Source: a virus. From it: DNA of 21,557 bases. The position numbers were made by a program, and so were the translations under genes. Where the stretch lies: IMG/VR virus record IMGVR_UViG_3300017719_000263, positions 1 to 21,557 of that record; one strand, 5' to 3'. Below are positions 1,462 through 14,037 of the stretch, in pieces. The notes under the pieces are model-generated. The model was not told where the DNA came from. It did no database searches and saw only the letters and a list, made by a program, of their open reading frames with translations. Each line of letters begins with the position of its first letter. Within the stretch, counting starts at the first letter, position 1.

Positions 1462-1604
1462 AAGTCAGGCTCCCCATTCTCATCTAAAATGGGCATCTTG
1501 AAAGAAAAATCTCTAACGACTACCGGCTCTGGTTGTTTGGGTATAATTACGCCTAGTTCTCTCAAATATATTTCTATGTGAGGCGGTAGATTATCATACA
1601 ACAT
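1458..1604 (-). CDS. Small conserved-looking hypothetical protein between helicase and polymerase
   Basis: A 48-residue protein of unknown function, acidic toward the C-terminus, with a PPHIEIYLRELGV segment near the N-terminus. The start at 1604 overlaps the helicase stop by 11 nt and has GGGGAG 10 nt upstream. A longer reading from 1640 would lie deeper inside the helicase gene and is less likely. The stop overlaps the TTG start of the polymerase, so the three genes form a tightly packed cassette. A replisome accessory role is possible from position only; there is no recognisable domain. Confidence 0.6.
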   Translation of the reverse strand: MLYDNLPPHIEIYLRELGVIIPKQPEPVVVRDFSFKMPILDENGEPDF

Positions 1605-2820
1605 AACGATTAATCTCCCCTTCAAGATTACACTGAACAAGCGTGTGCCTTCCGCTAATCTTGTTTTTCATAATGTTAATATATCTGGTGGGGTCATCAG
1701 GGTTGTCGGGGTTATCCGCTTTCCCTATGCCGAAAAGTAAATCCGCTTCTGACTGTTTAGCCACACGACTTCCTTCTAGCATGCTCATAGATAGGCGTGT
1801 TCTGCCCTCTGCATCACCCGTTGCCTGACTCATGGCGATGATTGCGGTATTATGTTTTTTGGCTAAAGCGCGTAGCTGAGTATATAAGCTTCTAAGCCGC
1901 TGATGGCCTTGATCAAACTTTTCAGTCAGTTCGACTTTATCTGCCATGTCTACGATAACTACACTGAATTCTTCTTTAGCTAGATAGGCGTCAAGGATGT
2001 TCATATCCCACCCCTGCGTATCTCTAAATATGATCCGGTCTTTGATGCCAGAGAAGCGAGTTACTGCAGCCGCTGGATCAACCCTGATTTCATCCTCAGT
2101 CATGCCAGTGTAAGACTGCAAAGCTCTAAGCTTCACCCTGCGTCCAAATTCTTCGTTACAGATGTAACCGACTTTAGCACCTTGCTGGCAGAAACCTGCA
2201 GGGCCGCAAGATATCGACACGGCAAAGGCTGTCTTGCCAACATTAGAATACGCAGCAACAATCATAAACTCACCGCGCCCAATGCCATAAACTTCGCGGC
2301 TGAGTGTTTCTATATTGAATTTAAATCGGTTGTCGTTGGCTGTTGTAGCCAGCAATTCATAAATGTCATCTGTGACCGGAAGACCAAAGATATCGTCTGG
2401 AAGATAACCCGCCGTGACACGCTCGACTAGAGTGTTAATCTTCCGTAGCGCATCCTTATCTCCTTGGTTCATAAGCAACGCTAGTTGTGCTATATCGTTT
2501 GCAACTTCTTGCATCCACAGATTGTTGATAACTGTGGCACTGATCTCTGCATCGATAGGCTCAGAAGTAGCAATTTCTTGCACTTGCTCTTCGACTTGAT
2601 CAGCTTGGGCGGGAGTCCATACAGGATGGTTCGACTTCCAATATGCAAACAAATCTAAGGAAGTTATATCCTTTTCAAACTTGTCATGCATTTCAACGAT
2701 AGAAGTATATATTTCTTTTAGAGTTTCATTAAAAAGCTCAGGTCTAAGCTTCGATTTATTTGCCTCATAGAACTCATTATTTAAGCAGTTTTTTAGTAGT
2801 GAGTGTTCCAATTTAGTCAT
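1594..2820 (-). CDS. DnaB-like replicative DNA helicase
   Basis: A 408-residue RecA-fold helicase expected to unwind DNA at the phage fork with the nearby polymerase and separate primase. The N-terminal ~140 residues are helical and resemble a DnaB N-domain. The ATPase core has a P-loop ending SNVGKT (G195-K196-T197), in which the usual first glycine is alanine (A190). A Walker B strand reads VVIVD (D291), with E223/E224 between them. SQATGDAEGR (331-340) and LEGSRVAKQSEADLLF (349-363) fit the C-terminal DnaB/T7-gp4 helicase motifs. The protein has no zinc-finger or TOPRIM part, so helicase and primase are split here, unlike T7 gp4. AAGGA abuts the ATG, an unusually short spacing. A bipartite TTGACA-like/TAATTGTTA motif lies 15-35 nt upstream (2835-2855) and a terminator for the preceding unit lies beyond it, so this gene probably opens its own leftward unit. 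Confidence 0.92.
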   Translation of the reverse strand: MTKLEHSLLKNCLNNEFYEANKSKLRPELFNETLKEIYTSIVEMHDKFEKDITSLDLFAYWKSNHPVWTPAQADQVEEQVQEIATSEPIDAEISATVINNLWMQEVANDIAQLALLMNQGDKDALRKINTLVERVTAGYLPDDIFGLPVTDDIYELLATTANDNRFKFNIETLSREVYGIGRGEFMIVAAYSNVGKTAFAVSISCGPAGFCQQGAKVGYICNEEFGRRVKLRALQSYTGMTEDEIRVDPAAAVTRFSGIKDRIIFRDTQGWDMNILDAYLAKEEFSVVIVDMADKVELTEKFDQGHQRLRSLYTQLRALAKKHNTAIIAMSQATGDAEGRTRLSMSMLEGSRVAKQSEADLLFGIGKADNPDNPDDPTRYINIMKNKISGRHTLVQCNLEGEINRYVV

Positions 2821-2834
2821 TCCTTAGTTGCCTG

Positions 2835-2855
2835 TAACAATTAGCTACTTGTCAG
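2835..2855 (-). promoter_or_regulatory. Bipartite motif upstream of helicase unit
   Basis: Leftward strand reads CTGACA-N6-TAATTGTTA, then CAGG. The -35-like half is good but no -10 is recognisable at 17 nt (GGCAAC). Lies between the preceding terminator and the helicase ATG, so some promoter is expected here. Confidence 0.45.
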
Positions 2856-2876
2856 GGCTAACACACAAGAAGACAT

Positions 2877-2910
2877 AAAAAAAGCCCCAATTTTCATTGA
2901 GGCCTTTTTC
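2877..2910 (-). terminator. Rho-independent terminator with GNRA loop
   Basis: Leftward: GCCTCAAT-GAAA-ATTGGGGC (8 bp, one T-G pair; 2903-2884) then TTTTTTT (2883-2877). The rightward strand also ends in a T-rich run (CTTTTTCTTCT), so it may be bidirectional. Ends the primase unit. Confidence 0.85.
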
Positions 2911-2928
2911 TTCTAGATTATGGAAAGT

Positions 2929-3141
2929 TTATTTAGATGGCTTGTTTTGTCTGAACGCCATTTGCTCTAAATCAGGTTTTGCTGATCCTCTACGCTCTTT
3001 AATGTTCAAAGCGGTATAGCTTACACATTTATTAGAGTTGGAGAATTCTTCTAGGATCGCGCTTAATTTCTGTTCGATTTTAGCTGCCTCTGTGAAGTTT
3101 GCTACTTCAAGATCAGCCAACATAATTGCTCTTAGTTGCAT
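2929..3141 (-). CDS. Small hypothetical protein
   Basis: Seventy residues, not recognised. The first ~35 are amphipathic and helical (EVANFTEAAKIEQKLSAILEEF) and the C-terminus is basic (RRGSAKPD..., ending NKPSK), so a small DNA- or protein-binding helical protein is conceivable. AAGGA sits 9 nt upstream of the ATG. It is the last gene of the primase unit: a strong leftward terminator follows the stop by about 20 nt (2877-2910). Confidence 0.7.
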   Translation of the reverse strand: MQLRAIMLADLEVANFTEAAKIEQKLSAILEEFSNSNKCVSYTALNIKERRGSAKPDLEQMAFRQNKPSK

Positions 3142-3231
3142 TTTTGATATTCCTTGATTTTAACGTCGGTATTATCAGCTTCGACGGATACTTTTTCTCG
3201 CAGAATTACCTGCGCCTATGTTAAATTTATT

Positions 3232-3438
3232 TTAAGGGTGTTGTGGCGGTGCTAATGCAACTATTGGACTACCCCAGACAGTGTTACCCACCCAATCTGA
3301 CGAAGATACACTTTTCACTTTACTTATAATACGCAACGATTTTCTGTACGCCGCGCCATATTGTCTTAACAAATAAGAACCTGTCCAGTTATGCTCGACA
3401 AGTCTAAAATGGTTAGATGGAAGAATATTAATCTCCAT
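3232..3438 (-). CDS. Small hypothetical protein overlapping primase end
   Basis: Sixty-eight residues, not recognised. The ATG lies inside the last codons of the primase gene (11-nt overlap), suggesting coupling. The middle is basic (RQYGAAYRKSLRIISKVK) and the end is hydrophobic and proline-rich (SPIVALAPPQHP). Codon use resembles the neighbours and it fills the gap between two better-supported genes. The ribosome site is weak, so the call is moderate. Confidence 0.55.
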   Translation of the reverse strand: MEINILPSNHFRLVEHNWTGSYLLRQYGAAYRKSLRIISKVKSVSSSDWVGNTVWGSPIVALAPPQHP

Positions 3439-4189
3439 ACAACACCCGTTTAACTTGCTCAGTATCCAACACTTTTAAGTCTCTCTTAGTTAAACATACA
3501 CGAATATTACATCCATGCTTCCTAGCTTGTTGTACTGCCTTAATACTTGCGTCCATGTCAAGCACTAAATACTTATCACTGTATTTTTTAAGTGTCTTTG
3601 TGATGTTATAGCTAAGTTTAGTTCCTAGCAAAGCTAAACCTACAAAACCTTTTATCCGTGACACCGAACAAGCAGAAGGCACATCTTCTACCATCACAAC
3701 TTTGTTACCAACGCCTATAGTAATTCCAGATTCAATTACACCGTAAGTGATCCACTTCGGGCCAAAGCCAGACAGTAATCTGCCTACCGCGCCATTAGCA
3801 TAATAAAAGATTACTCTGTTTTCTGATGGTGCATATCTAATTTTTATTAATTGATTGTTATATGCTTCCAGACTGTTTACCGACTCCAGATAATCTAAAG
3901 AGGGTTGGTGGTTCGTTACAGAAGTTGTAATCGAAGGTAAAGGCTTACCTATAGGTTTGTCAGCTTTAATATTGTTTAATCTATTTTTGACATACTCTAT
4001 CGTTCTATCACCAGTGTAGATTCCTTTTCCTTCACAACTGGCTCTAAAGCAATTCCACATTACTGTACCATCAATTTTAGAAATAGATAACTTCTTATCC
4101 ATATAGCAGAATGGACAGGTGATTACTTTTCTATCACCTTCCCGCAAAGGTATTCTTTTGATGATATCTAGTTGTTCAGAGTAAGTCAT
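3428..4189 (-). CDS. DNA primase (zinc ribbon plus TOPRIM), separate from helicase
   Basis: A 253-residue primase that would lay RNA primers for the phage polymerase. The N-terminal zinc ribbon has C25/C28 (CPFC) and C47/C52 (CFRASC), as in T7 gp4 or DnaG-type template-recognition domains. A TOPRIM catalytic fold follows: the acidic residue in VVMVEDVPSA (E168) and the DxD in YLVLDMDAS (D211, D213). The whole is about the size of the primase half of T7 gp4, so helicase and primase are encoded by separate genes in separate units, with two small genes and a terminator between them. The ATG is preceded by a purine-rich AAGAAGATAG. A TATAAT on the leftward strand at 4215-4210 could be a -10, but no good -35 pairs with it. 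Confidence 0.9.
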   Translation of the reverse strand: MTYSEQLDIIKRIPLREGDRKVITCPFCYMDKKLSISKIDGTVMWNCFRASCEGKGIYTGDRTIEYVKNRLNNIKADKPIGKPLPSITTSVTNHQPSLDYLESVNSLEAYNNQLIKIRYAPSENRVIFYYANGAVGRLLSGFGPKWITYGVIESGITIGVGNKVVMVEDVPSACSVSRIKGFVGLALLGTKLSYNITKTLKKYSDKYLVLDMDASIKAVQQARKHGCNIRVCLTKRDLKVLDTEQVKRVLYGD

Positions 4190-4209
4190 ATATCTATCTT
4201 CTTTAGTTG

Positions 4210-4215
4210 ATTATA
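4210..4215 (-). promoter_or_regulatory. Possible -10 box for primase unit
   Basis: Leftward strand reads a perfect TATAAT about 20 nt upstream of the primase ATG. No recognisable -35 at 16-18 nt and no extended -10, so it could be chance in AT-rich sequence. Confidence 0.3.
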
Positions 4216-4280
4216 AGTCATGTCACCTCGCGGCGACATCCGAAGGATACACGCTTTAACAATATTGTAAATGGTACAAA

Positions 4281-4301
4281 CGACAATTAGTTAAATGTGA
4301 C
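4281..4301 (-). promoter_or_regulatory. Degenerate copy of bipartite intergenic motif upstream of primase unit
   Basis: Leftward strand reads GTCACA-N6-TAATTGTCG. It matches TTGACA at 4 of 6 and TAATTGTTA at 7 of 9, with the same 6-nt gap as the better copies at 2835, 7829, 8293 and 12724. Weakest member of the set. Confidence 0.35.
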
Positions 4302-4368
4302 TAAAAGTATTTTTGATTAACAGTTTATCACACTCATAGTATTTAAGTCATTGTTTTATATGCAAAAA

Positions 4369-4413
4369 CTGGTAATCAATTGGTCGTAGGTTCGATCCCT
4401 ACCGCCGGAGCCA
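4369..4413 (+). other. attP-like 3' fragment of a host tRNA gene
   Basis: Bases 4387-4403 form a perfect T-arm (GTAGG, loop TTCGATC, CCTAC). They are followed by a seven-base acceptor strand CGCCGGA, discriminator G and encoded CCA (4411-4413). Upstream lies TAATCAATTGGTC, an anticodon-stem 3' side and variable loop. The 5' half of a tRNA is absent (an A-run stands in its place), so this is not a functional gene. A 3' tRNA fragment in a phage with a tyrosine integrase is the standard look of attP. U1-type pairing (acceptor ending ...GGA) and G73 fit tRNA-Asn best, although the anticodon triplet reads GGT rather than GTT. Confidence 0.75.
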
Positions 4414-4455
4414 AAGTCACTGATATTAAACAATTAATCAGGGTCTTGGATGAGT

Positions 4456-4506
4456 AAAAAAAGGAAGAAATTGACGAAAAAGTAATTCCTTTTTTCTTCC
4501 TTTTTT
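4456..4506 (-). terminator. Rho-independent terminator of integrase-ThyX unit
   Basis: Inverted repeat GGAAGAAA (4463-4470) / TTTCTTCC (4493-4500), flanked by an A-run (4456-4462) and a T-run (4501-4506), so it could work both ways. Leftward, the stem ends in TTTTTTT right after the 41-aa gene. Confidence 0.75.
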
Positions 4507-4517
4507 CTATAACCGAC

Positions 4518-4643
4518 TCACTTGTATTTTATGTAGACATCTTTAATCGATAGGTTATCGGCTTCTTTGCGTGCATCTTTTTCAAGTACTGTTTTATAAG
4601 CCAGCGCATTGTCAGTTTTAGAACAGTAATATGTTAGTATCAC
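4518..4643 (-). CDS. Very small hypothetical protein after ThyX
   Basis: A 41-residue reading frame with a GTG start 4 nt after the ThyX stop. It is lysine-rich and polar (CSKTDNALAYKTVLEKDARK..., ending VYIKYK). The ribosome site (GAACGG) is weak. Support comes from spacing, phage-like codon use and the terminator that follows the stop within about 12 nt. Not recognised; moderate to low certainty. Confidence 0.45.
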   Translation of the reverse strand: MILTYYCSKTDNALAYKTVLEKDARKEADNLSIKDVYIKYK

Positions 4644-4647
4644 CGTT

Positions 4648-5361
4648 CTATATCCGCTTCGCATCATACTCTTCCAGAACGCTTGTGGTGGTCAGAGAAG
4701 CCCATGAAATAGGATAGAGCCGTGACATCTCATGGCTGACTAAATTGGCTACTGAGCGTGTCTCCTGTTGAGTGTCAGGTGAGCATCTAAGTACTGCCAT
4801 TCGTGCAAACGCATCTAGTGACCCAGACCACCAAAACTGCGTCATTAAATTAGCCGGTAATACCATTCGCGCTTGTTCTTCACAGACGCCTAATTCTAGC
4901 AGATAATTATAGTGAGCTACTGCCTTGTTACATTGTGACAGTGTGGATGCTATCACTTTGTTAGCTGTATCATCTTCAAGTCGGTCACCAGAACCTTGCT
5001 TCTTATCTTTGACTGACTGTCTCCACCAATCTGGATAAAATATGTCAGGCTGCGATTTCACATATCTGCGGCTCACTTCGTTAATTCTCAAATATGAATG
5101 TTTTACAAGTTGTCGGCTCACAAAAATTGGACAGCTAATTCTAAAAGATGCAAAGCAATGTCCAAATGGACTAAAATGCTTATGCTTGGCTAAATACTTT
5201 ATAAGCTTTTCGTCTGAATAGTGGAGTATGGGGCGCATATCTCCATCTGTTCCAGTAAAGCCCAGACCTTTGCTATGCTTACTGAATGACACTCTAGCTG
5301 CATTTACGCACGAAAGGTCACTGCCCATGCTGTCGAGCAATTCTACAGAGATTTTACTCAT
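4648..5361 (-). CDS. thyX: Flavin-dependent thymidylate synthase ThyX, divergent signature
   Basis: Makes dTMP from dUMP using methylene-tetrahydrofolate and FAD, boosting thymidine for phage replication. 237 residues, normal for ThyX. Family landmarks: AARVSF (21-26), LIKYLAKHKHFSPF (53-66), CPIFVSRQ (77-84), INEVSRRY (93-100), LPANLMTQFWWSGSL (168-182) and the C-terminal LRCSPDTQQETR (191-202). The hallmark RHRx7S motif is altered to K87-H88-S89...S97, and the usual glutamate of PFEH is G67. So flavin or dUMP contacts may differ, yet the surrounding fold signature is intact. The ATG overlaps the stop of the 67-aa gene, so it is part of the integrase unit, an unusual pairing of a metabolic gene with lysogeny functions. 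Confidence 0.9.
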   Translation of the reverse strand: MSKISVELLDSMGSDLSCVNAARVSFSKHSKGLGFTGTDGDMRPILHYSDEKLIKYLAKHKHFSPFGHCFASFRISCPIFVSRQLVKHSYLRINEVSRRYVKSQPDIFYPDWWRQSVKDKKQGSGDRLEDDTANKVIASTLSQCNKAVAHYNYLLELGVCEEQARMVLPANLMTQFWWSGSLDAFARMAVLRCSPDTQQETRSVANLVSHEMSRLYPISWASLTTTSVLEEYDAKRI

Positions 5362-5564
5362 TACACTAACCTCTCGTAGATAACATAATCTTTGCCGTGC
5401 AAATACTCTTGGCCTACTCGCATTGTGCGAAGGTGATCAAAGGGCAGTTCGTGACCCATGCCCGCAACTCTGCCAACAGTCTGGGATTTGCAGTGAGTAG
5501 TTTTAAAAACTTTATATTTGTCGTAATGATCCATTTTTGTAATCGATAGTGTATCAAAATGCAT
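5361..5564 (-). CDS. Small hypothetical protein between integrase and ThyX
   Basis: Sixty-seven residues, not recognised. It is rich in charged and aromatic residues with a central GMGHELPFDHLRTMRVGQEY segment; no membrane segment. The start at 5564 overlaps the integrase end by 11 nt; an alternative ATG is at 5534. The stop touches the ThyX start. It sits within a continuous coupled series, so it is very likely translated. Confidence 0.65.
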   Translation of the reverse strand: MHFDTLSITKMDHYDKYKVFKTTHCKSQTVGRVAGMGHELPFDHLRTMRVGQEYLHGKDYVIYERLV

Positions 5565-6828
5565 TTGTAGCTTTCTCTTTCAGTAATTGTTGAATTAAAA
5601 TGTTTTGTTCTGCGATAATATCTTGCAGCTTTTCGGGCGAGTCAGTGCCTTGTTTGTACCGCCGCATTTCCCTGCCCAGCTTCTTAAAGCCGACAGTATC
5701 TAGTCCACGTTTCTCCAAGGCGTTGTGAGCGTTAGTTTCCGTCAGTACAGAGTAAACCATGAGGCTGTTTATGTTCTTGTGACCTGAGATAGCCATCAGT
5801 TCGTCATGGGTGCAGCCGCACTCAGAGCCGTGTGTTACTCCAGAGCGCCTCAAATCAGCCAGCCTTACGTCAGTATATACATACGATCCATCAGGCCGCT
5901 TCTTGCCCTTGTCACGCACTGGCGGGAGCAACTTAGAAGCCTTCCTAATATCAGAGAATACTTTAGTCAGCCGGTCAGCCGTGTAAGGCTTTCGCGTACC
6001 TTCCTCGCGTATAATAAAATCATCAGAGTTATGCTTAGAATGCAGCTTTAGCCGCTTCTCTATGCCAACGGTGACAGGAATACGCATTTCAGCGCCTGTC
6101 TTCTTCTGAGCAAACTCAGCTACATTATGTACTGTGTCAAAGTCATTCCATTTCAGAAGTCGTACATCAACAGGCCGCTGCATCCATTCATAGCAAATCG
6201 TAATGACAGTACCCATACTGACTTTGCCGTTTGCATCACAGTATTCTACCATTTCTTTGACTTGATCAGGCGTCCACATGACCCTGCGTACATGACCTTT
6301 TGGAAGCTTTAGATCAGAGAAAGGGTTTGTAGTAGCCAGATTAAGCCGCCTACCCTCTGCCCATGCTGATCGAAGTCGGATGATAGTTACACGCGCATTG
6401 TTAGTTGTAACTTTGTCCTCAACGATTTGAAATATCTTCTGCGCGTACTGATAGTCTACATCTTCTACCAGAACGTCAGAGAAAGGCTTGCCATCTCCTA
6501 GATCCCACTGCAGCAAGCGGTCTATGATTTGTCGATAATTTCGCTTCGTATTAGCCGCATTATCTTTGAAGGCCATAGACCTTTTCCATGCGGAAATAAG
6601 TGCATGTACTGTGTTTTGGGGGGCGTAAACTGATGTGTCTGTACCTGCGCCCGTATGTTTCTCCCATTGCTTGTGCCACTGGCGCACTAAGTATTGAGCT
6701 TCCGATTTGGACTCTAAGGTGGTGCGCTTAATGTTGGGAAATACTTTTAGCATGGCTGCGCTAGGTCTAACAAAGTAGACCCAGCCGTTTTTACGCTGGA
6801 CAGGTTCTATATATCCAGCGGTCTTCAT
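5554..6828 (-). CDS. int: Tyrosine-family phage integrase
   Basis: Site-specific recombinase for integration, probably at the tRNA whose 3' end lies at 4369-4413. 424 residues: an N-terminal arm-binding part (1-60), a SAM-like core-binding domain (about 70-170) and the catalytic domain (180-370). Catalytic residues: R218 (MQRPVDVRLLKW), K243 in the QKKTG turn, R327 (ADLRRSG), H350 (ISGHKN) and Y359 (LMVYSVL). The first histidine of the usual HxxR box is alanine here (A324), a variation that may be tolerated in phage enzymes. The C-terminal ~50 residues are helical. The ATG overlaps the preceding stop (ATGA). The attP lies 1.1 kb beyond the gene, past ThyX, rather than directly beside int. Confidence 0.93.
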   Translation of the reverse strand: MKTAGYIEPVQRKNGWVYFVRPSAAMLKVFPNIKRTTLESKSEAQYLVRQWHKQWEKHTGAGTDTSVYAPQNTVHALISAWKRSMAFKDNAANTKRNYRQIIDRLLQWDLGDGKPFSDVLVEDVDYQYAQKIFQIVEDKVTTNNARVTIIRLRSAWAEGRRLNLATTNPFSDLKLPKGHVRRVMWTPDQVKEMVEYCDANGKVSMGTVITICYEWMQRPVDVRLLKWNDFDTVHNVAEFAQKKTGAEMRIPVTVGIEKRLKLHSKHNSDDFIIREEGTRKPYTADRLTKVFSDIRKASKLLPPVRDKGKKRPDGSYVYTDVRLADLRRSGVTHGSECGCTHDELMAISGHKNINSLMVYSVLTETNAHNALEKRGLDTVGFKKLGREMRRYKQGTDSPEKLQDIIAEQNILIQQLLKEKATNAF

Positions 6829-7052
6829 CGTGTAGCGCCCAAAGTAACGTGAGGTTCAGTCAGGCGCTGAAGATGCTTGTTTAAGTGTTTAAGCTTGGCG
6901 TTCTCTTCCATGAGCGCACCAATCCGAAACCTAGCCTGATAAACATCTTGGCTGGTGAATTCGTTACCCGCCTCTGCCAAGTCTTCTGCTAATTGCTCCA
7001 AGTAGTTTCTGAATTCGGCGTCCGTCATATCATTAAAAATTTGCGTACTCAT
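6825..7052 (-). CDS. Small acidic coiled-coil hypothetical protein upstream of int
   Basis: Seventy-five residues starting at 7052, where ATG overlaps the previous stop and GAAGGAG lies 8 nt upstream; a longer frame from 7142 runs through the neighbour and is rejected. The N-terminal half is acidic and helical (DMTDAEFRNYLEQLAEDLAEAG), followed by a possible coiled coil (LMEENAKLKHLNKHLQRL). Immediately before int, it could be an excisionase-like or regulatory factor by position only; no helix-turn-helix is evident. Confidence 0.65.
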   Translation of the reverse strand: MSTQIFNDMTDAEFRNYLEQLAEDLAEAGNEFTSQDVYQARFRIGALMEENAKLKHLNKHLQRLTEPHVTLGATR

Positions 7053-7360
7053 TGAGACATCTCCTTCTGTAGCCGCAGACCCTTGATCAGCATCTCTTCG
7101 GCATCTTTCTTCTGACCCCTTTGCAGACGCTCTAAAGCCCATGACACCCAGCTAGTTGCGTGAGGCGATAATTGGTCAGGCTTTGGCTCTGGCTTGTGAC
7201 CTAGAGCCTCGAATGAACCCACTGCGTTATCGTTTAAGAAGGAAAGCAGATTGGGTTTATCGACGGGCACCTCGACTAAGCGCATGTCATCCTTGAACCG
7301 CTTGCGAGCATCAGCTTGAGTGCCTGACCAGTGGCCTTGATTGTTTGTGTACAACTTCAT
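7049..7360 (-). CDS. Hypothetical protein, integrase unit
   Basis: A 103-residue soluble protein of unknown function. The N-terminal part is basic (QADARKRFKDDMR), the middle is Pro/Lys-rich (HKPEPKPDQ), and the C-terminal helix WALERLQRGQKKDAEEML resembles tetratricopeptide-like helices but is too short to call. The ATG overlaps the stop of the 84-aa gene inside an AGAGGTGGCGGCATGA junction that also occurs at the next junction upstream. The end overlaps the next start (ATG at 7052). Confidence 0.7.
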   Translation of the reverse strand: MKLYTNNQGHWSGTQADARKRFKDDMRLVEVPVDKPNLLSFLNDNAVGSFEALGHKPEPKPDQLSPHATSWVSWALERLQRGQKKDAEEMLIKGLRLQKEMSQ

Positions 7361-7611
7361 GCCGCCACCTCTTCCATGCAGACGTCATCTGCCCAGACTG
7401 TGAAGGTTGCTGGATTGCCTGTGGCGCTCTCAAAGCTTCCAACCTCTACACTTACAGACCCATCAGCAATCAACTCATCATCAAAGTTGTCTCCGCACAT
7501 AATCAAATTCGCTTCGGCATATGTTAGCTGGTGGCTGGTGTTAGCTAACTCATTCCACTGATCGACAAGATGCTGTGCTTGACTATGTGTGATTGAAATG
7601 TGGATGCTCAT
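7357..7611 (-). CDS. Small acidic hypothetical protein ending EEVAA
   Basis: Eighty-four residues from the ATG at 7611, which overlaps the preceding stop (ATGA) behind an AGAGGTGG ribosome site; a longer frame from 7650 is less likely. The protein is acidic, apparently alpha then beta (ITHSQAQHLVDQWNELA, then DGSVSVEVGSFESATG). Not recognised. Its last codons (GAG GTG GCG GCA) double as the ribosome site of the next gene. The protein tail EEVAA looks like the AVAA end of alphaproteobacterial ssrA tags. Confidence 0.7.
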   Translation of the reverse strand: MSIHISITHSQAQHLVDQWNELANTSHQLTYAEANLIMCGDNFDDELIADGSVSVEVGSFESATGNPATFTVWADDVCMEEVAA

Positions 7612-7763
7612 GCCGCCACCTCTGATCCAAGGGCTTGTATTTGCTTCCACCAGTAATCTTGGGCTTCAATACTATTGGATAAACACATGCGGCGGTGGAG
7701 ATAGTTAAACCGTTCTTCAGCTTGCTTGTATGTACGGTCAGTAAGTTTAATAGTAGTTTTCAT
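7608..7763 (-). CDS. Small hypothetical protein opening the integrase unit, ending SEVAA
   Basis: Fifty-one residues, basic and helical with a Trp pair (DYWWKQIQ) and a C-terminal SEVAA. Start supported by a GAGAAAGTGACT leader of the kind seen before several other genes in this window (9461, 11002, 11291). First gene of the int unit: a bipartite promoter-like motif lies at 7829-7849, giving a leader of ~60 nt, and the stop overlaps the next start. Possibly a small regulator; no domain recognised. Confidence 0.7.
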   Translation of the reverse strand: MKTTIKLTDRTYKQAEERFNYLHRRMCLSNSIEAQDYWWKQIQALGSEVAA

Positions 7764-7828
7764 GTTAGTCACTTTCTCAGTTGGCTGTTATACACAACGT
7801 ACAACAGTTCAGTGACTAGTGTTTATTC

Positions 7829-7849
7829 TAACAATTATCAGTATGTCAA
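7829..7849 (-). promoter_or_regulatory. Bipartite motif / candidate promoter of integrase unit
   Basis: Leftward strand reads TTGACA-N6-TAATTGTTA, followed by GAAT, giving TGTTAGAAT, an extended -10-like box at a short 13-nt spacing. At 17 nt the hexamer is only ATAAAC. The last nine bases plus flank (TAATTGTTAGAATAAACA) recur with one change at 13951-13968. Confidence 0.5.
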
Positions 7850-7868
7850 TCAGAAATATATTTAGACA

Positions 7869-7893
7869 TAAAAAAAGACACTAAAAAGTGTCT
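7869..7893 (-). terminator. Rho-independent terminator of the 64-aa gene
   Basis: Leftward: AGACACT, loop TTTT, AGTGTCT, then TTTTTTT (stem 7876-7893, tail 7876-7870). Perfect 7-bp stem. Follows the stop of the gene at 7927-8121 by about 33 nt. Confidence 0.8.
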
Positions 7894-7926
7894 AATTTTA
7901 CCTGCGCGTCAATGTTATATACTGTA

Positions 7927-8121
7927 CTAAGTGTTTGATATTTCCGCTATGATATTCATACCGTATTCATGGGTTGAATCATCCGTTGGCACACAAATAG
8001 TTGCACCTAACTCTTTATTAAATATCAAAGAATGTGTGATTCTAGTCTGCTCGACTTTGATAGTTGCATTCTTAATATCTTCGCTTAGTTCGTAGGCGTC
8101 GAGGGTAGTAAGTTTGTACAT
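7927..8121 (-). CDS. Small hypothetical protein, single-gene leftward unit
   Basis: Sixty-four residues, soluble and slightly acidic, beta-rich by appearance (ATIKVEQTRITHSLIFNKELGATICVP). Not recognised. AGG lies 9 nt upstream of the ATG. The gene stands alone between its own motif (8293-8313) and its own terminator (7869-7893), which suggests separately controlled expression, as for an early or lysogeny gene. No helix-turn-helix is visible, so I do not call it a repressor. Confidence 0.65.
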   Translation of the reverse strand: MYKLTTLDAYELSEDIKNATIKVEQTRITHSLIFNKELGATICVPTDDSTHEYGMNIIAEISNT

Positions 8122-8373
8122 ATTTTAGCCTAACTTTTTATATTTTAAATTTGAGACTTGCGCGTGAACTCCTAGTAGCCCTCATATGGGCTTTAACGAC
8201 AATTTGTACTGCGTAAAGTAGTATCATTTTGCTGTCAATAAAAATCCAGATTTTAATCGAAAAACTTTTTTAAATAATAATTTGACAAATCATAACAATT
8301 AATTGACTGTCGAGCTAATAGGCGTGACTTCCTATTTGTTAAAACTCTAATCAACTAAGAACGGATCAAAAAA
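8122..8373. promoter_or_regulatory. Divergent intergenic control region
   Basis: No gene. It separates the leftward and rightward halves and should hold promoters for both. Seen: GCCC-TCATAT-GGGC dyad (~8178-8192), a leftward TTGACA at ~8240 with a poor -10 (TACGCA) 17 nt on, a rightward TTGACA at 8282-8287 without a fitting -10, and the bipartite motif at 8293-8313. AT-rich throughout. Confidence 0.5.
8293..8313 (-). promoter_or_regulatory. Bipartite intergenic motif, divergent region
   Basis: Leftward strand reads TCGACA-N6-TAATTGTTA followed by TGAT, so TGTTATGAT forms an extended -10-like box. On the other strand TAACAATTA lies 5 nt after a TTGACA. Could serve the leftward 64-aa gene, the rightward cassette, or both. 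Confidence 0.45.
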
Positions 8374-9309
8374 ATGACAGTAAAGCAATACAAGCTTGCC
8401 ACGGCGCAAGCCATGAAAACTATGAGAGAACACTGCGACAGCGACAATTTTATTAAAGAGTGTAGAGCCGCCGCGCACGCTAAAATAAAAGCCGCGACTT
8501 GCAAAAAAGGCTTTTTGAACTGGTCTAAGCTTCCGGCTTTAATCGGGCAAAACACAAAAATTAAAAAAGATGTAACAAGCTTAAACACGGATCTAGAAAT
8601 TTGGGGCTTATCGCTCGCGCCGCATTGGGTGAGCGGCTTCAATACTTGCAACGGCTTATCAATGGGCTGCGCGAAGAATTGTCTGATGTTTACGGGCATG
8701 GGGCAAAAATTTATGATTGCCAGCGATGGTAAGCATAAAGTCGCAATAGCTCGCATTATTAGATCAATTCTATGGTTTAAATATCGTGATCAATTCAAGG
8801 CGCGGCTTTTGTTGGAAATAGAACGAAAAGCCGCCAGCCTACAAAATAAGAATATAGCAATGGCATTTAGGCCAAACGTGTTTAGTGAAGTAAAATTTGA
8901 AAAGACTTTCCCCGAATTGTTTGAGCTTTGTAATGATCTAAATGTTAAATGTTACGATTATGTAAAGGACATAAAACGGATAAAAGAAAACCCGTTTCCG
9001 TCATATCACATGACTTTTAGTCTATCTGAAAACAATGCGCTTTTTATTCCAACCGCTTTAAAGCACGGCGCTAATATTGCCATTGTCACGGATTTACCCA
9101 CAAATAAAAACCGCGACAAAACATATAAACATTTACCGCCCAAAAGCTTATCTGTTGCTGGGGTTACTTTGCCAACTGTAGACGGTGACCAGCATGACGC
9201 CCGTTTTTTAGATAAAGCAAAAGCCGCGTTTATAGTTTTGCGCGGAAAAGGCCAAACAATAAAAAGCGATTTAACCGGCTTCAAACATCAAATTTCTGAG
9301 GCGGCTTGA
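8374..9309 (+). CDS. GP88/DUF7227-like conserved phage protein of unknown function
   Basis: A 311-residue cytoplasmic protein. The central stretch WGLSLAPHWVSGFN (77-90) followed by C92, C99 and C103 (TCNGLSMGCAKNCL) and RDQFKARLLLEIE (138-150) resembles the LAP-x-SG-x-N-x-C-x-C-x-C signature of phage proteins annotated 'gene product 88' or DUF7227. I know that family only by sequence pattern and cannot assign an activity; the three clustered cysteines could bind metal. First gene of the rightward cassette. By eye it uses GCC/GCG, CGC and AAAAGC more than the flanking replication genes, hinting at separate acquisition. It ends SEAA, with the GAG GCG GCT codons offering a ribosome site to what follows. 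Family assignment tentative. Confidence 0.75.
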   Translation: MTVKQYKLATAQAMKTMREHCDSDNFIKECRAAAHAKIKAATCKKGFLNWSKLPALIGQNTKIKKDVTSLNTDLEIWGLSLAPHWVSGFNTCNGLSMGCAKNCLMFTGMGQKFMIASDGKHKVAIARIIRSILWFKYRDQFKARLLLEIERKAASLQNKNIAMAFRPNVFSEVKFEKTFPELFELCNDLNVKCYDYVKDIKRIKENPFPSYHMTFSLSENNALFIPTALKHGANIAIVTDLPTNKNRDKTYKHLPPKSLSVAGVTLPTVDGDQHDARFLDKAKAAFIVLRGKGQTIKSDLTGFKHQISEAA

Positions 9310-9310
9310 A

Positions 9311-9379
9311 TTGTCCTATCTTTATCAAGCCATCGGCTTTGTTTGCGTGTGGATCTATTTGCTGGATCTATTCGCGTAA
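9311..9379 (+). CDS. Possible 22-residue membrane microprotein
   Basis: TTG start 2 nt after the preceding stop, behind GAGGCGG. It encodes MSYLYQAIGFVCVWIYLLDL plus two residues, almost entirely a membrane helix. Short and without other support, so it may be chance. Confidence 0.25.
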   Translation: MSYLYQAIGFVCVWIYLLDLFA

Positions 9380-9460
9380 ATAAAACATTTACAAAGTGTT
9401 TTTTAAATGTTACGAACCCCAACGACCTAAATTTTAACCAACTAAGAAAGTGACTGAAAA

Positions 9461-10327
9461 ATGTTAGATTTTAATTTGACTGCAGAACAAAACGCCGCGC
9501 AAATCGTAAACGACTTTGCACCCGCGTCATTATCCACAAGCGCCGCGCCGACTGTGAGTAGTCGTTACGCTTTTATCAATAGCGCAAAGGCAATTGATAT
9601 TTTAGCCGACTATGGATTCCATGCGACTGCAGCGCAGCAGCAGAAAAGCCGTGACAAATCAAAAGCGCCCTACGCCGCTCACATGCTTAGATTTCAAAAC
9701 GAAGCGTTTTCTACTGGTGAAGGTATTCCAGAACTGTTGCTATTAAACAGTCATAACAAAAGAACGTCACTTGGTTTAGGCCAAGGCTTTTTTCGTTATG
9801 CTTGCTCTAACAATGTAGTGTTGGCGACTTCTGGCATATTCCAACGGCTGCGCCATAATGCAGCAACCGAGAGCGCTTTTGAAAAGTTAGTCGCTGAAAA
9901 GGCTGCGGGTTTACCTGAGACAATGGCGCGGATTGAAACAATGCAAGGCGCGGAAATAAGTAACGTTAGCGCGTTTTCTATGGCGGCGGAAATGTGCGAA
10001 GCAAGGGGGTGGCTAGCGTCCTATAAACAGCCCGCTTTAAATCTAAAAGCCGCCAGCTATTACAACGAAAACACTATTAGCGATTTGCTGACGGTACGGC
10101 GTTCAGAAGACAAAAGCCGCACAGTTTGGAATATATTCAACCGCGTTCAAGAATGTTTCTGCAGCGCTAATAACGGCTTTGCGCCGGTTCGCATTGTCTC
10201 GACTTCTAAAAAATATCCAGAGGGGCGCGAGCGTAAAGCACGTTCAGTCAGATCAATTGCGGGCAACACTGCATTAAATGCAAAATTGTTTTCTATTGGC
10301 GAAACCTACGCAAAAGAGGCGGCTTAA
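9461..10327 (+). CDS. DUF932-like phage/plasmid protein
   Basis: A 288-residue protein resembling DUF932 (phage/plasmid-like protein) by its order of landmarks: LLLNSHNKRTSLGLGQGFFR (93-112), ACSNNVV (114-120), QRLRHN (128-133), then WNIFNRVQECF and a C-terminal RKARSVRSIAG...LNAKLFSIGETYA. The family is common on phages and plasmids, and its function is not established to my knowledge. The start is preceded by the ACTAAGAAAGTGACT leader shared with other genes here. It ends KEAA, with GAGGCGG serving as ribosome site for the next gene, whose ATG follows the stop directly. Its pairing with a GP88-like gene suggests a conserved accessory module. Confidence 0.75.
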   Translation: MLDFNLTAEQNAAQIVNDFAPASLSTSAAPTVSSRYAFINSAKAIDILADYGFHATAAQQQKSRDKSKAPYAAHMLRFQNEAFSTGEGIPELLLLNSHNKRTSLGLGQGFFRYACSNNVVLATSGIFQRLRHNAATESAFEKLVAEKAAGLPETMARIETMQGAEISNVSAFSMAAEMCEARGWLASYKQPALNLKAASYYNENTISDLLTVRRSEDKSRTVWNIFNRVQECFCSANNGFAPVRIVSTSKKYPEGRERKARSVRSIAGNTALNAKLFSIGETYAKEAA

Positions 10328-10657
10328 ATGTCTCTGGATCTAGCAAAGAATAAAGCGGTTAAAGGCGAAACCGTGCGAGCAAAACGCCGCATAAAATCGC
10401 TGGCGAAAAAAGAGGCTGCGCTTGTGCGCGGCTTCAAAGAATTAAAACAATTACAGGACAATAAAAAAATGAAATATTTAACGCTCGACCGGATGATAAA
10501 AATTGAAGCCGCCACGCATGACCAGAAAACGCCGCATGATTTGTTAGCTTTTGCCAATGCCAAGCGCTGGTCAAAAAGCAAAAACGACTTTGAGCGGTAT
10601 GGTGATTTAACATTGCCAAATTTAATCCGCGCAATGCGTAAAGAAATGGAGGCATGA
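10328..10657 (+). CDS. Small basic helical hypothetical protein
   Basis: A 109-residue, strongly basic protein. Residues 1-45 are Lys/Arg-rich and likely helical (KRRIKSLAKKEAALVRGFKEL), and the C-terminal half is mixed (HDLLAFANAKRWSKSKNDFERYG). Nucleic-acid binding is plausible from charge only. The ATG directly abuts the DUF932 stop, with a ribosome site inside that gene's end. Its own end (GGAGGCATGAT) supplies the site for the next gene. Confidence 0.75.
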   Translation: MSLDLAKNKAVKGETVRAKRRIKSLAKKEAALVRGFKELKQLQDNKKMKYLTLDRMIKIEAATHDQKTPHDLLAFANAKRWSKSKNDFERYGDLTLPNLIRAMRKEMEA

Positions 10658-10658
10658 T

Positions 10659-10853
10659 ATGAGAAGTGTAAGACGTTCAGAGGAAAGCCTAACAAGCCGC
10701 ATAAATGGCTTGGGTAATGCAACTATGTCGGGGCGCGGGCATGGGCGCATACAAAGCAAGCAATTGGCTGGCTTGGATGACTTGCCGCCAGAAAGCTTAA
10801 ACCGCGCCCAGCGCCGCGCAAAAGCGGCTGATAAGAAGCGGCGCAAAGAATAG
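10659..10853 (+). CDS. Small basic protein with NRAQRRA motif
   Basis: Sixty-four residues. The C-terminus carries SLNRAQRRAKAADKKRRKE, and NRAQRRA-type tails recur in small phage proteins; their function is unknown to me. ATG 1 nt after the preceding stop behind GGAGG. Last gene before the strong terminator at 10881-10907, so the first cassette unit (8374-10853) ends here. Confidence 0.75.
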   Translation: MRSVRRSEESLTSRINGLGNATMSGRGHGRIQSKQLAGLDDLPPESLNRAQRRAKAADKKRRKE

Positions 10854-10880
10854 CTGTCTTCGATCACAAACAATTAAATT

Positions 10881-10907
10881 AGCCGCCTTAAACGGGCGGC
10901 TTTTTTT
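10881..10907 (+). terminator. Rho-independent terminator of first accessory unit
   Basis: AGCCGCC (10881-10887), short loop, GGCGGCT (10895-10901), then a run of T. Closely resembles the terminator at 12154-12179, including the preceding CAATTAA, as if the two were copies. Confidence 0.9.
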
Positions 10908-10922
10908 ATGACAATTTACTAT

Positions 10923-11001
10923 TGTTTTTTGTAACACTTTTATTTAACAATGCAGGGGCAGGCCGAAGGCTTGCTTATCAATAATTAAGAAGGTGACTGA
11001 A
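10923..11001 (+). repeat. Leader repeat, copy 1, with conserved hairpin
   Basis: Gap-free direct repeat of 11212-11290 (offset 289), ending at the start codon of the following gene; 7 differences over 82 nt when the ATG is included. Contains hairpin GCAGGCC-GAA-GGCTTGC (10958-10974), then AGAAGG 8 nt before the ATG. Probably a 5' leader with a regulatory or stabilising stem. Confidence 0.8.
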
Positions 11002-11223
11002 ATGACAATTGAAACGCTTACAAGCCCGCTTTTTATGGCCGCATTTTTTGCTGTGGCTGTTTTCATATCTTGGGCAATTGCTGCGGTAATTACTGCCCTA
11101 CAAGATAGAGCAGATCGCAAAAAACTTGATGCAATTGTTGCAAAGTATGCAGCAAGACGCGCAGCGGATGACGCCTATCACGCCGAATTTATGGCAGAAA
11201 TAAACCGCAAATGTTTTTTGTAA
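11002..11223 (+). CDS. Small single-pass membrane protein
   Basis: Seventy-three residues. One membrane helix near the N-terminus (about 9-32, PLFMAAFFAVAVFISWAIAAVI) is followed by a charged, Ala-rich helical tail that would face the cytoplasm (ALQDRADRKKLDAIVAKYAARR). The start is taken at ATG 11002, 8 nt after AGAAGG; an in-frame GTG at 10993 overlaps the ribosome site and is rejected. The last codons (TGT TTT TTG TAA) belong to the second copy of the leader repeat. Could be a holin-like or superinfection-type protein by shape, but there is no specific evidence. Confidence 0.7.
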   Translation: MTIETLTSPLFMAAFFAVAVFISWAIAAVITALQDRADRKKLDAIVAKYAARRAADDAYHAEFMAEINRKCFL

Positions 11224-11290
11224 TACTTTTATTTAACAATGTAGGGGCGGGCCGAAGGCTTGCTCCTCAACAATTAAGAAGGTGACTAAA
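11212..11290 (+). repeat. Leader repeat, copy 2, with conserved hairpin
   Basis: Second copy of the leader at 10923-11001. Its hairpin is GCGGGCC-GAA-GGCTTGC (11247-11263). The one stem difference (A to G) still pairs as G-T, so the structure is kept while the sequence changes. The repeat begins inside the preceding reading frame and runs to the next ATG. Confidence 0.8.
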
Positions 11291-11560
11291 ATGACTGAAC
11301 TAGTAACAAATAAATACGGTGAAACATTTAAGAAGGTAGCTTTAAAAAGCTTAAAGAAAGGCGACGAATTCAAGCGCAAGCCTGATGCGCTAAAAAGCTT
11401 TTATAAATGGCATTACAACCGCAAATCGGCTTGCTACAAGCAAGCGACTTTCTGCTGCATTCCTGATGATGATGTTTATGGTGGCGGTATGGAAATAAAC
11501 GCTAAAGCTTTTGTTTATGTCGATAGTGCTGGACCAGCTAATTATAAGGGGTTGCTCTGA
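11291..11560 (+). CDS. Hypothetical protein of accessory cassette
   Basis: Eighty-nine residues, Lys-rich N-terminal half (KKVALKSLKKGDEFKRKPDA), then CYKQATFCCIPDDDVYGGGM with three cysteines and a short hydrophobic end. The fragment LKKGDEFKRK resembles small phage proteins that are beta-barrel-like, but I cannot assign one. Start at ATG 11291 behind the repeated leader; the stop overlaps the next start (TGATG). Confidence 0.7.
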   Translation: MTELVTNKYGETFKKVALKSLKKGDEFKRKPDALKSFYKWHYNRKSACYKQATFCCIPDDDVYGGGMEINAKAFVYVDSAGPANYKGLL

Positions 11561-11790
11561 TGAATTATCGAATGGTTACGGTAGTAACGCAAAAGAAACA
11601 AAAGCTAGGCTTGTCGGGGATGGTAACTTTACGCAATAACTTTGCGCTGGAAACAGATAAGGCGCATAGATTTGTGCAAGCAATAATCGCATTGCCAACA
11701 ATTGTTGATATTGAAATAAGCGAGGGCTTTACGATTACGGACAATGTTGATCGAGCAATAGCCGCCGTTACTCGCAATGGGGTGCTATGA
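11560..11790 (+). CDS. Hypothetical protein of accessory cassette
   Basis: Seventy-six residues, soluble, beta/alpha by appearance (YRMVTVVTQKKQ, then HRFVQAIIALPTIVDIEISEG). Not recognised. It starts at a TGATG overlap with the gene before and ends overlapping the gene after, so it is expressed from the same transcript. Confidence 0.7.
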   Translation: MNYRMVTVVTQKKQKLGLSGMVTLRNNFALETDKAHRFVQAIIALPTIVDIEISEGFTITDNVDRAIAAVTRNGVL

Positions 11791-12131
11791 TGCAGAAATA
11801 TTTTGAATTCACATGGCTCGAAATAAATGGCGACTTTTTTGAGCAAATTGTAATTGCAAACAATAGTGATAAAGCCGAAGAAATTTGGCGCACGACTTGG
11901 CCTGATCATTTAGGCGCAAGCTATAAGCCGCCCGCTATTCTGGAAGTTACGGAAGCTTGTTACCTATCTGGAAAAGCTTTCTTTAAATCTGGCGGTATTT
12001 CTCCGCTCATGCATCATTGCACGACTTGCGGCGCGGCTGATAAAAAAGACAATTTGTTATTAGATTGCGAAAAGCTTTATTGCAGCGACTGCATAGGCGA
12101 GCAACGTTATAACGACTGGCCTTGCCAATAG
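11787..12131 (+). CDS. Small protein with C-terminal zinc-ribbon-like cysteines
   Basis: A 114-residue protein. The N-terminal ~60 residues (MQKYFEFTWLEINGDFFEQIVIANN...) are of unknown fold. The C-terminal ~45 carry HHCTTCGAADKKDN...LDCEKLYCSDC: a CxxC plus CxxxxCxxC set fit for one zinc ion. A nucleic-acid or protein-interaction role is possible. Last gene of the cassette; terminator at 12154-12179. Confidence 0.7.
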   Translation: MMQKYFEFTWLEINGDFFEQIVIANNSDKAEEIWRTTWPDHLGASYKPPAILEVTEACYLSGKAFFKSGGISPLMHHCTTCGAADKKDNLLLDCEKLYCSDCIGEQRYNDWPCQ

Positions 12132-12153
12132 ATCCAGCCAACAGAAAGCAATT

Positions 12154-12179
12154 AAGCCGCCTTAAATGGCGGTTTTTTT
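12154..12179 (+). terminator. Rho-independent terminator of second accessory unit
   Basis: AAGCCGCC / GGCGGTTT stem (12154-12161 with 12168-12175) including one G-T pair, with a T tail to 12179. Sister of the terminator at 10881-10907. Confidence 0.85.
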
Positions 12180-12186
12180 GTGCCTG

Positions 12187-12235
12187 ACGTTTAGCTAATA
12201 ATTTAAAGTCGGGTGATTAGGCACCAGCTAAACGT
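12187..12235. repeat. Perfect 10-bp inverted repeat
   Basis: ACGTTTAGCT at 12187-12196 and its exact reverse complement AGCTAAACGT at 12226-12235, 29 nt apart; a further TGCCTGA / TTAGGCA pair is out of register. Could form a cruciform or bind a dimer at its two ends. Sits 15 bp before the tandem repeats. Confidence 0.75.
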
Positions 12236-12250
12236 GAGAACGGCTTGAGG

Positions 12251-12340
12251 GCTATCAGACTTCGAGCTATCAGACTTCGAGCTATCGACCATCGAGCTAT
12301 CGACCATCGAGCTATCGACCATCGAGCTATCGACCATCGA
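12251..12340. repeat. Six tandem 15-bp repeats (iteron-like)
   Basis: Two units of GCTATCAGACTTCGA (12251-12280) then four identical units of GCTATCGACCATCGA (12281-12340). In the last four, TCGA recurs every 7-8 bp, giving a symmetric rhythm. Followed by AT-rich sequence. Candidate binding array for a replication or partition protein; the alternative is a simple tandem expansion. Confidence 0.9.
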
Positions 12341-12481
12341 GCATGCACAAAGCCGCCGCCCGCACTGCCATTTCAAAACTATCAAACTAATTTTTTAAAA
12401 CTTCCGAAACATTGCAGAATAAAAGAAAGCTTTTTTCCTTTTATTTATTTTCGCTGCATAAAATCTCTATATTTTTAAGGG

Positions 12482-12518
12482 CTGTTTTATTCTTTGACTG
12501 ATATCAAAGCGTTAACAG
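12482..12518. promoter_or_regulatory. Nested dyad, possible operator or terminator
   Basis: CTTTGA-CTGATA-TCAAAG (12492-12509) lies inside CTGTT...AACAG (12482-12486, 12514-12518). A T-rich run follows, so a terminator is possible, but no gene precedes it closely; an operator is equally likely. Confidence 0.4.
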
Positions 12519-12723
12519 TTTTGTTTATTATTATTTTTTATCTAATGCTTTCAAAGACTTATGATGACGCAAGAAAAAATCAAAAGGCCACCGACTGCCA
12601 CCCCCACCCCTACCGGTATCGTATACAGCCCTGACATATTTTTGAGAAAATAGAACCGTAAACCGCCTACTCTAAGTCTGCAGCCTTTTAAATATGTAAA
12701 CGTACTAGATTTAGTAGTTACGC

Positions 12724-12752
12724 TTGACAACTTACTAATTGTTACATATACT
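12724..12752 (+). promoter_or_regulatory. Strong sigma70-type promoter for rightward operon, containing bipartite motif
   Basis: TTGACA (12724-12729), exactly 17 nt, TATACT (12747-12752). Transcript start expected near 12759, with the first ATG at 12796 and AAGG 7 nt before it. The spacer holds TAATTGTTA (12736-12744) at the same offset as the other copies of the motif, so the promoter may be under a common regulator. Confidence 0.85.
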
Positions 12753-12795: not shown

Positions 12796-13137
12796 ATGAA
12801 TTCACCATTGGATAATGGTCAGTCGATTCTTTTAGATTTTGGTTTTATTCTTACCCATGAGTTGTCTATAGATGAGCATGGCGTATTAAACATCACTGCT
12901 TCTGTCCACGATGAACTGACAGAACACTTGCAGAAAACAATTAAAGCCCCTTTCTACCAGCTAACTGACTATCTAGTTAATCTTCCTGATAATGAACAAG
13001 ATTATAATCAGCTTTATGCAATAGCCAATGAGCTAGTCCGTGAGTCAGAGCGTATCCGCGAAGTAGCTGACCGCATAGAGACAAGCACTGCTAATGTAGC
13101 TGACCTATTTAACACTTCGTATGTTCCCCCAACCTGA
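12796..13137 (+). CDS. Hypothetical acidic helical protein, first gene of rightward operon
   Basis: A 113-residue acidic protein, not recognised. The C-terminal half is helical and probably coiled (YNQLYAIANELVRESERIRE...DRIETSTANVADLF). It directly follows the strong promoter, with AAGG 7 nt before the ATG, and overlaps the nuclease gene by 17 nt. First position behind a host-type promoter suggests an early role. Confidence 0.75.
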   Translation: MNSPLDNGQSILLDFGFILTHELSIDEHGVLNITASVHDELTEHLQKTIKAPFYQLTDYLVNLPDNEQDYNQLYAIANELVRESERIREVADRIETSTANVADLFNTSYVPPT

Positions 13138-13661: not shown

Positions 13662-13814
13662 ATGTTTAAGAAATTACTAAGTAAGCTACAAGAAAATCAG
13701 ATGCGTAGAACCGCCTACTGGCAGTTACAGAACCTTACTAACAAAGAACTTAATGACATCGGATTATGTCGAGGCGATATTCGACGTATAGCCTATAAAG
13801 ATCCTATTAAGTAG
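13662..13814 (+). CDS. DUF1127 (YjiS-like) small protein
   Basis: Fifty residues. R15-RTAYWQLQNLTNKELNDIGLCRGDI-R41 matches the DUF1127 pattern (R..EL..L...EL.DIGL.R.DI), a short bacterial family abundant in alphaproteobacteria. As I recall, a Rhodobacter member, CcaF1, binds RNA and affects sRNA maturation and RNA turnover. So an RNA-level effect on the host is a reasonable guess. The gene has its own extended -10 promoter and a near-perfect AAGGAG site, unlike its operon neighbours, and a 7-bp stem over its stop codon. It may be expressed independently of the lytic programme, like a moron gene. Confidence 0.85.
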   Translation: MFKKLLSKLQENQMRRTAYWQLQNLTNKELNDIGLCRGDIRRIAYKDPIK

Positions 13815-13818
13815 GATC
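13800..13818 (+). other. Hairpin over DUF1127 stop codon
   Basis: GATCCTA-TTAAG-TAGGATC, a perfect 7-bp stem whose 3' arm starts with the TAG stop. No T-run follows, so it is not a classic terminator; it may protect the mRNA end. Confidence 0.5.
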
Positions 13819-14037
13819 GGCGGTAGACTGCTTTAAGTCATCTACTTAGAGACAACTATCCATACTAGGGTGACTTAGAGTTAGTTTATATATTAAACCC
13901 CTCAACCGACAATTCATTATACCAATTAAATGCTATTTCGTCAATATTAATGTTTATTTTAACAATTAATTAAATGATTGCCTTACCATCAGATAAGTGG
14001 TACAATGTATGGATTAGGCATTCTAACTGGAGTGCTT
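13815..14037. other. Non-coding stretch between DUF1127 gene and packaging operon
   Basis: No gene. Contains partial stems just after the DUF1127 stop (GACT...AGTC near 13826-13839), the 18-nt TGTTTATTTTAACAATTA (13951-13968) shared with the integrase-unit promoter region, and the rightward promoter at 13978-14006. Confidence 0.6.
13978..14006 (+). promoter_or_regulatory. Promoter ahead of the small-protein/packaging operon
   Basis: TTGCCT (13978-13983), 17 nt, TACAAT (14001-14006) with a TGG extension. Start expected near 14013; ATG at 14038 behind GGAG. Its -10 context (TGGTACAATGTA) is nearly that of the DUF1127 promoter (TGGTATAATGTA). Confidence 0.7.

Follow-up and report, generated by a model that had tools for sequence, protein, structure and literature searches.

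Does a short element that recurs in front of most transcription units of a phage genome act as a promoter in its own right, or does it mark the sites at which a regulator could control promoters of the ordinary type? The question is raised by a stretch of 21,557 bases of viral DNA, the IMG/VR record IMGVR_UViG_3300017719_000263 (G000 in our genome set), which is referred to here as the window and is a fragment of an HMO-2011-type, integrase-bearing phage. An initial annotation of the window had described a composite, TTGACA-N6-TAATTGTTA, in five intergenic places. We found that this element is an imperfect palindrome of 20 bp, with arms of roughly TRACAANTAR and YTANTTGTYA, as revealed by relatives of the phage. 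We infer, as a fairly probable reading, that a single dimeric regulator would bind its copies as operators and, by repression, co-ordinate replication, the rightward units, and perhaps integration.

Palindromic symmetry of the recurring element

The composite was found at all five places reported for it, namely, 2835-2855 (minus strand, arm CTGACA), 4281-4301 (minus strand, a degenerate copy, GTCACA-N6-TAATTGTCG, with 4 mismatches), 7829-7849 (minus strand, exact), 8293-8313 (minus strand, arm TCGACA), and 12724-12744 (plus strand, exact), and the further exact TAACAATTA was likewise located at 13960-13968. The gap of 6 nucleotides (nt) proved to be as constant as described, since matches with at most one mismatch number 4 at gap 6 and 0 at gaps 0 to 5 and 7 to 18. 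When up to 3 mismatches were allowed, 10 matches were obtained versus 1.11 expected, a number reached in 0 of 100 shuffles. The 9-mer TAATTGTTA occurs 5 times; Markov-1 shuffles of the window gave 0.4 (maximum, 3), and shuffling only the intergenic DNA gave 0.08 (maximum, 2). With intergenic regions defined by a greedy open reading frame (ORF) call, all five copies of the 9-mer are intergenic, the one at 7829 being scored as genic solely through a probably spurious antisense ORF of 56 amino acids (aa).

TTGACA and TGTTA, the two parts first recognized, are the arms of the palindrome, and the constant 6-nt gap is its centre. This symmetry had been missed, as had the position of the 13960 copy over the promoter of the gene at 14038 and the existence of a further copy, in sister contigs outside the window, after the DNA polymerase gene. 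In an unbiased search for recurrent intergenic palindromes, the element ranked first in the window and in the relatives G001, G002, and G004. Expectation maximization (EM), in which the controls were retrained on shuffles, yielded 67.5 for the window versus a null maximum of 40.7 and 36.5 for G004 versus a null maximum of 21.9. The mean dyad score is 7.0/10 for 22 curated sites versus 2.7 for random intergenic 20-mers, a comparison that is weakened by the list having been picked after the sites had been seen. Multiple dyad-symmetric copies, as in a repressor/operator system, are therefore present, the symmetry being weak at 7829.

Placement of the palindromes at predicted promoters

Promoters are taken throughout as predicted −35/−10 boxes. 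For the primase gene (3428-4189, minus strand; ~56% identical to the primase of phage CRP-738), a consensus scan placed the promoter at 4244-4271 (minus strand), with TTTACA at 4271-4266 and TATCCT at 4249-4244 separated by 16 nt. Relatives retain a −35 box 16 nt away from TATCCT or TAAGCT and read TTGACA-16-TAAGCT or TATCCT. The primase palindrome (4281-4300, minus strand; TCACATTTAACTAATTGTCG, dyad 6/10) lies ~10 bp upstream of this −35 box; it is also upstream in L009 and overlaps the −35 box in L027, L033, and CRP-235. A weaker second palindrome at 4257-4276 (minus strand), TACCATTTACAATATTGTTA, which includes ACAATATTGT, overlaps the −35 box and is a possible second operator; its counterpart in G004 was recovered de novo.

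At the DnaB-like helicase gene (1594-2820, minus strand; PF03796, E 2e-14), the palindrome (2835-2854, minus strand; TGACAAGTAGCTAATTGTTA, dyad 8/10) stands between the promoter region and the start codon, where it occupies the expected start-site region immediately before the ribosome-binding site. The main rightward promoter has its −35 box at 12724-12729 and its −10 box, TATACT, at 12747-12752, and the element TGACAACTTACTAATTGTTA (12725-12744, plus strand) extends from the −35 box into the spacer. A good −10 box at 17 nt had been claimed for this copy alone, and the consensus scan agrees. The gene behind it (12796-13137, plus strand), the first of the rightward unit, is conserved across the family and has no known domain; its promoter reads TTGACA-17-TATACT in the window and TTGCAT-17-TATAAT in CRP-738. 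Farther downstream, the palindrome TAACAATTAATTAAATGATT (13960-13979, plus strand; dyad 7/10) overlaps the −35 box of the promoter of the 14038-14295 gene (plus strand), which consists of TTGCCT at 13978-13983, a spacer of 17 nt, and TACAAT at 14001-14006. This gene encodes a conserved acidic 85-aa protein (67 ORF matches in the fetched loci; no domain), and L068/L066 carry TAACACTTAATTAAATGATT at the matching position. A palindrome scan also found a new site, TAACAATTAACAAAATGTTA or TAACAACTAACTAAATGTTA, after the DNA polymerase gene in four sister contigs, where it lies between a TTGACG and a TACAAT of the promoter's own; at orthologues, this promoter reads TTGAyn-17/18-TATAAT with a palindrome or half-site in the spacer. 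The two remaining copies are weaker. The one upstream of the tyrosine integrase unit (integrase, 5554-6828, minus strand; PF00589, E 6e-12) is at 7829-7848 (minus strand; dyad 4/10) and overlaps an extended −10 box, TGTTAGAAT (7833-7825), and the copy in the divergent region (8293-8312, minus strand; dyad 6/10) is the weakest case of all.

Orthologous genes share predicted promoters of the sigma-70 type, and the sites overlap promoters of lytic or replication units that are predicted in the window and kept in relatives. The initial annotation had offered, as one of two readings, a phage-specific promoter class, in which TTGACA and an extended −10 box (TGTTAnnAT) with a short spacer would be recognized by host RNA polymerase. 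The integrase unit of L003 has TTGACA-N13-TATAAT with TG-T before the −10 box, TGnTAnnAT is found in several relatives' helicase leaders, and the helicase, primase, integrase, and 12724 composites are all oriented along gene direction. We nevertheless consider this class improbable. Normal −35/−10 pairs at 16 to 18 nt exist at the primase, 12724, 14038, and post-polymerase promoters, and the element is placed differently in each. No fixed distance to the −10 box or start site was found, as placements in the spacer, over the −35 box, upstream of it, and at the start site all occur. The copy at 2835 stops 14 bp short of the start codon, which is too near for a promoter with a leader, and a promoter would not be expected to show dyad symmetry. 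Since the sister-contig promoter has its own TTGACG and TACAAT around the palindrome, TTGACA is not an intrinsic component of the element, and since position relative to the promoter varies while symmetry stays constant, the element is better read as an operator than as a promoter element.

It is also conceivable that the palindromes form RNA hairpins in mRNA leaders. The helicase palindrome may be transcribed, base pairing between its arms is possible with a G-U included, and inverted repeats are present at the helicase in several relatives; the primase, post-polymerase, 12724, and 14038 palindromes, however, precede the predicted start site and would be absent from a transcript that begins there, which makes this explanation hard to credit. 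An Rfam search gave nothing credible.

On the operator reading, a dimeric DNA-binding protein would recognize the 20-bp imperfect palindrome at or next to ordinary promoters of the sigma-70 type, those of the primase, helicase, post-polymerase gene, rightward unit, 14038 gene, and, weakly, the integrase unit. Bound at these sites, it would cover the −35 box, spacer, or start site and so co-ordinate the units; sites over these three positions could act by steric repression, and the primase site, which precedes the −35 box, could also serve activation. That one regulator switches all units, as had been proposed, is plausible. The likeliest role for it is that of a lysogeny repressor or early/late switch protein, because the phage has an integrase together with an attP-like tRNA end. 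The latter, a tRNA 3′-end core at 4373-4437, probably a phage attachment site (attP) as judged from its sequence, is 95% identical in many relatives, the flank ATTAAACAATTAA included. Integrases are encoded by some HMO-2011-type phages, and integration has been demonstrated for CRP-3 (PMC9038755, PMC6918029), which integrates at tRNA-Met (PMC6918029). A search of bacterial genomes for relatives of the window integrase found none. An integrase arm-type or IHF-like role for the element would fit AAACAATTA, a sequence that relatives retain and that adjoins the attP-like core at 4428; with the 12724 and 13960 sites 8 to 10 kb away from that core, we regard such a role as extremely unlikely.

Several other features were noticed. 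Directly after the primase −10 box, GATGTCGCCGCGAGGTGACATGA (4218-4240, minus strand) is probably a conserved 5′ mRNA hairpin, to judge from 14 aligned phages that keep it with altered arms and from compensatory two-sided changes in 7 of 8 pairs. A stretch before the 70-aa gene (3152-3300, minus strand) is conserved at 72 to 75% DNA identity, and the peptide SDWVG..VWGSPIVALAPP recurs in ORFs with differing N-termini, which may reflect a signal in the nucleotides and not in the protein. Short tandem repeats, ATCGACCATCGAGCT, occur at ~12255-12345 in the long noncoding stretch before the main rightward promoter. At 13808-13944 (minus strand), a strongly conserved, extended leftward promoter, TTGACG-N17-TATAAT, is followed by a conserved noncoding start, GAATTGTCGGTTGAG(C/G)GG; both are present in CRP-738 and several IMG/VR contigs. 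The transcript would be antisense to the flanking rightward genes and run toward a DUF1127 gene, and it is possibly a phage small or antisense RNA; a seven-row alignment revealed little structure. The DUF1127 gene itself (13662-13814, plus strand; 50 aa, PF06568, E 7e-9) is present in 7 of 8 family members compared and belongs to a family of small RNA-related proteins in alphaproteobacteria.

Retention and respelling among relatives

The window helicase shares 58% identity with its counterpart in Roseobacter phage CRP-738 and 30 to 46% with those of other HMO-2011-type phages, and integrase, ThyX, GP88, DUF932, terminase, and portal genes are recognizable. Near relatives retain the helicase and primase sites, with sequence changes that keep or raise the symmetry. 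The helicase site is kept in L001, L002, L003, L004, and L005, and L003, a close relative with ~80 to 88% DNA identity, has TGACAAGTAACTACTTGTTA as its helicase site and TCACAATTAACTAATTGTCA as its primase site, each with a dyad score of 8/10. Retention of the motif along with the genes was thus seen at these two units in near relatives; in distant ones, outside G001-G005, the exact window spelling was not above a reversed-pattern control.

Distant relatives carry palindromes at the same promoters with other half-sites, AACCAT/ATGGTT, ACACTT/AAGTGT, or ACATTT/AAATGT. Examples are AACCATTAATTAATGGTT at the CRP-235 primase promoter, GACACTTAGTTAGGTGTC at the CRP-212 integrase gene, TTGCATTTAGTTAAATGTTA at the promoter of the CRP-738 orthologue of gene 12796, and ACACTTAGCTAAGTGT in intergenic DNA of G019. 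In G011/G012, a different palindrome, AACTATTTACGTAAATAGTT, has ~10 copies versus 0.4 to 0.5 expected. Between lineages, both arms change jointly, whereas the copies within one genome resemble each other. Half-sites are enriched in the intergenic DNA of most members (CRP-235, 11 versus 0.2 to 0.7; G012, 8 versus 0.6 to 0.7; G006, 7 versus 0.2 to 0.3), figures that are descriptive and carry less weight for the operator reading, as the patterns were written after the sites had been inspected. Enrichment was not clear in HTVC033P, HMO-2011, and G015; HMO-2011 and G015 also bear an integrase, so the presence of that gene does not fully predict the motif. Viral scans with endonuclease VII and DUF932 proteins gave no close relatives at 12724, and conservation of that copy therefore rests on distant relatives. 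As a separate observation, several AACTATTTACGTAAATAGTT copies were seen in the long intergenic region before the 12796 orthologue of G012/G011 (L171 18404-19940, L189).

Taken together, dyad symmetry, retention in near relatives, and the variable distance from the −35 and −10 boxes support the operator reading, which was the second of the two originally put forward. A number of results weigh against it. The core symmetry of the five sites first reported is, by itself, only modestly beyond chance (P ~0.016), and the TGACA arm always faces upstream in the window, which a fully symmetric operator would not need. The 7829 site has a core symmetry of 0/5 and is perhaps no more than an extended −10 promoter, for which L003 has TG-T-TATAAT, and the 8293 site is not clearly kept in L003. 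EM was not above retrained shuffles in G009, G013, G016, CRP-738, and HMO-2011, and it drifted toward a G+C-rich motif in G019. Finally, no repressor or helix-turn-helix gene was found in any member examined.

Search for the regulator and comparison with known systems

The statement that no repressor gene is identifiable held up in Pfam and PHROGs scans, which detected no DNA-binding regulator among the small proteins of the window, a 21.6-kb fragment, and no DNA-binding family among 107 small nonredundant proteins of relatives (best 25 families for PHROGs). HTH_3 was absent from 18 records of relatives and was detected in 14 of 14 control genomes. A cognate gene with a DNA-binding domain was thus not among the features found. 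The 64-aa product of 7927-8121, earlier named as a positional candidate, is not supported in that role: its close relatives are few, it contains no known domain, and the preceding 8293 site is not clearly kept in L003. Two further proteins were considered and rejected: that of the 14038 gene (AlphaFold2 predicted local distance difference test [pLDDT], 71.6; no fold match) and the 70-aa protein of 2929-3141 (pLDDT, 83.6; no fold match in the PDB and, below E 0.02, no sequence match there either).

The fragment may lack the part that holds the regulator gene, and the regulator is possibly a phage protein of a new type or a factor of the host. A host transcription factor reading the operators, through which the phage would listen to host physiology, is consistent with the lack of a DNA-binding family among the 107 proteins and of HTH_3 in the 18 records. 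However, CRP-235 and CRP-212 both infect strain FZCC0040 and have AACC- versus ACAC-type half-sites, which fits phage-specific proteins better; a phage protein is therefore favored, and the host factor appears rather doubtful. Offered tentatively, and as less likely than not, is the generalization that HMO-2011-type phages, among the commonest marine groups, use palindromic operators specific to each lineage as a genome-wide switch, which would be read by a DNA-binding protein of a type outside present libraries or by a co-opted host factor. The operators would provide a handle for fishing out the regulator by DNA affinity and predict which units it controls, and their sequence code may define immunity groups. 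The words "promoter" and "repressor" were not found in searches of PMC9038755 and PMC6918029.

Among known systems, the operators of lambdoid CI/Cro are likewise palindromic sites over temperate-phage promoters, and the half-site ACAA/TTGT resembles that of the 434 operator, ACAA-N6-TTGT. The spacing differs, being ACAA-N8-TTGT here; lambdoid sites form triplets at one divergent switch, whereas the present sites are at many separate units, and no CI/Cro-type gene was found by the HTH_3 scan of the 18 records. Sigma-70 extended −10 promoters share TGTTAnnAT with some copies, but the element has no fixed place relative to the −10 box and start site. The operators and stoperators of Cluster A mycobacteriophages (L5, Bxb1) are also genome-wide repeats, alike within a genome and respelled between lineages (PMC6550527). 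Those sites are 13 to 14 bp long, lack dyad symmetry, number 20 to 30 per genome, and are bound by a monomer, in contrast to the 20-bp palindromes described here, which occur in ~4 to 7 copies at promoters.

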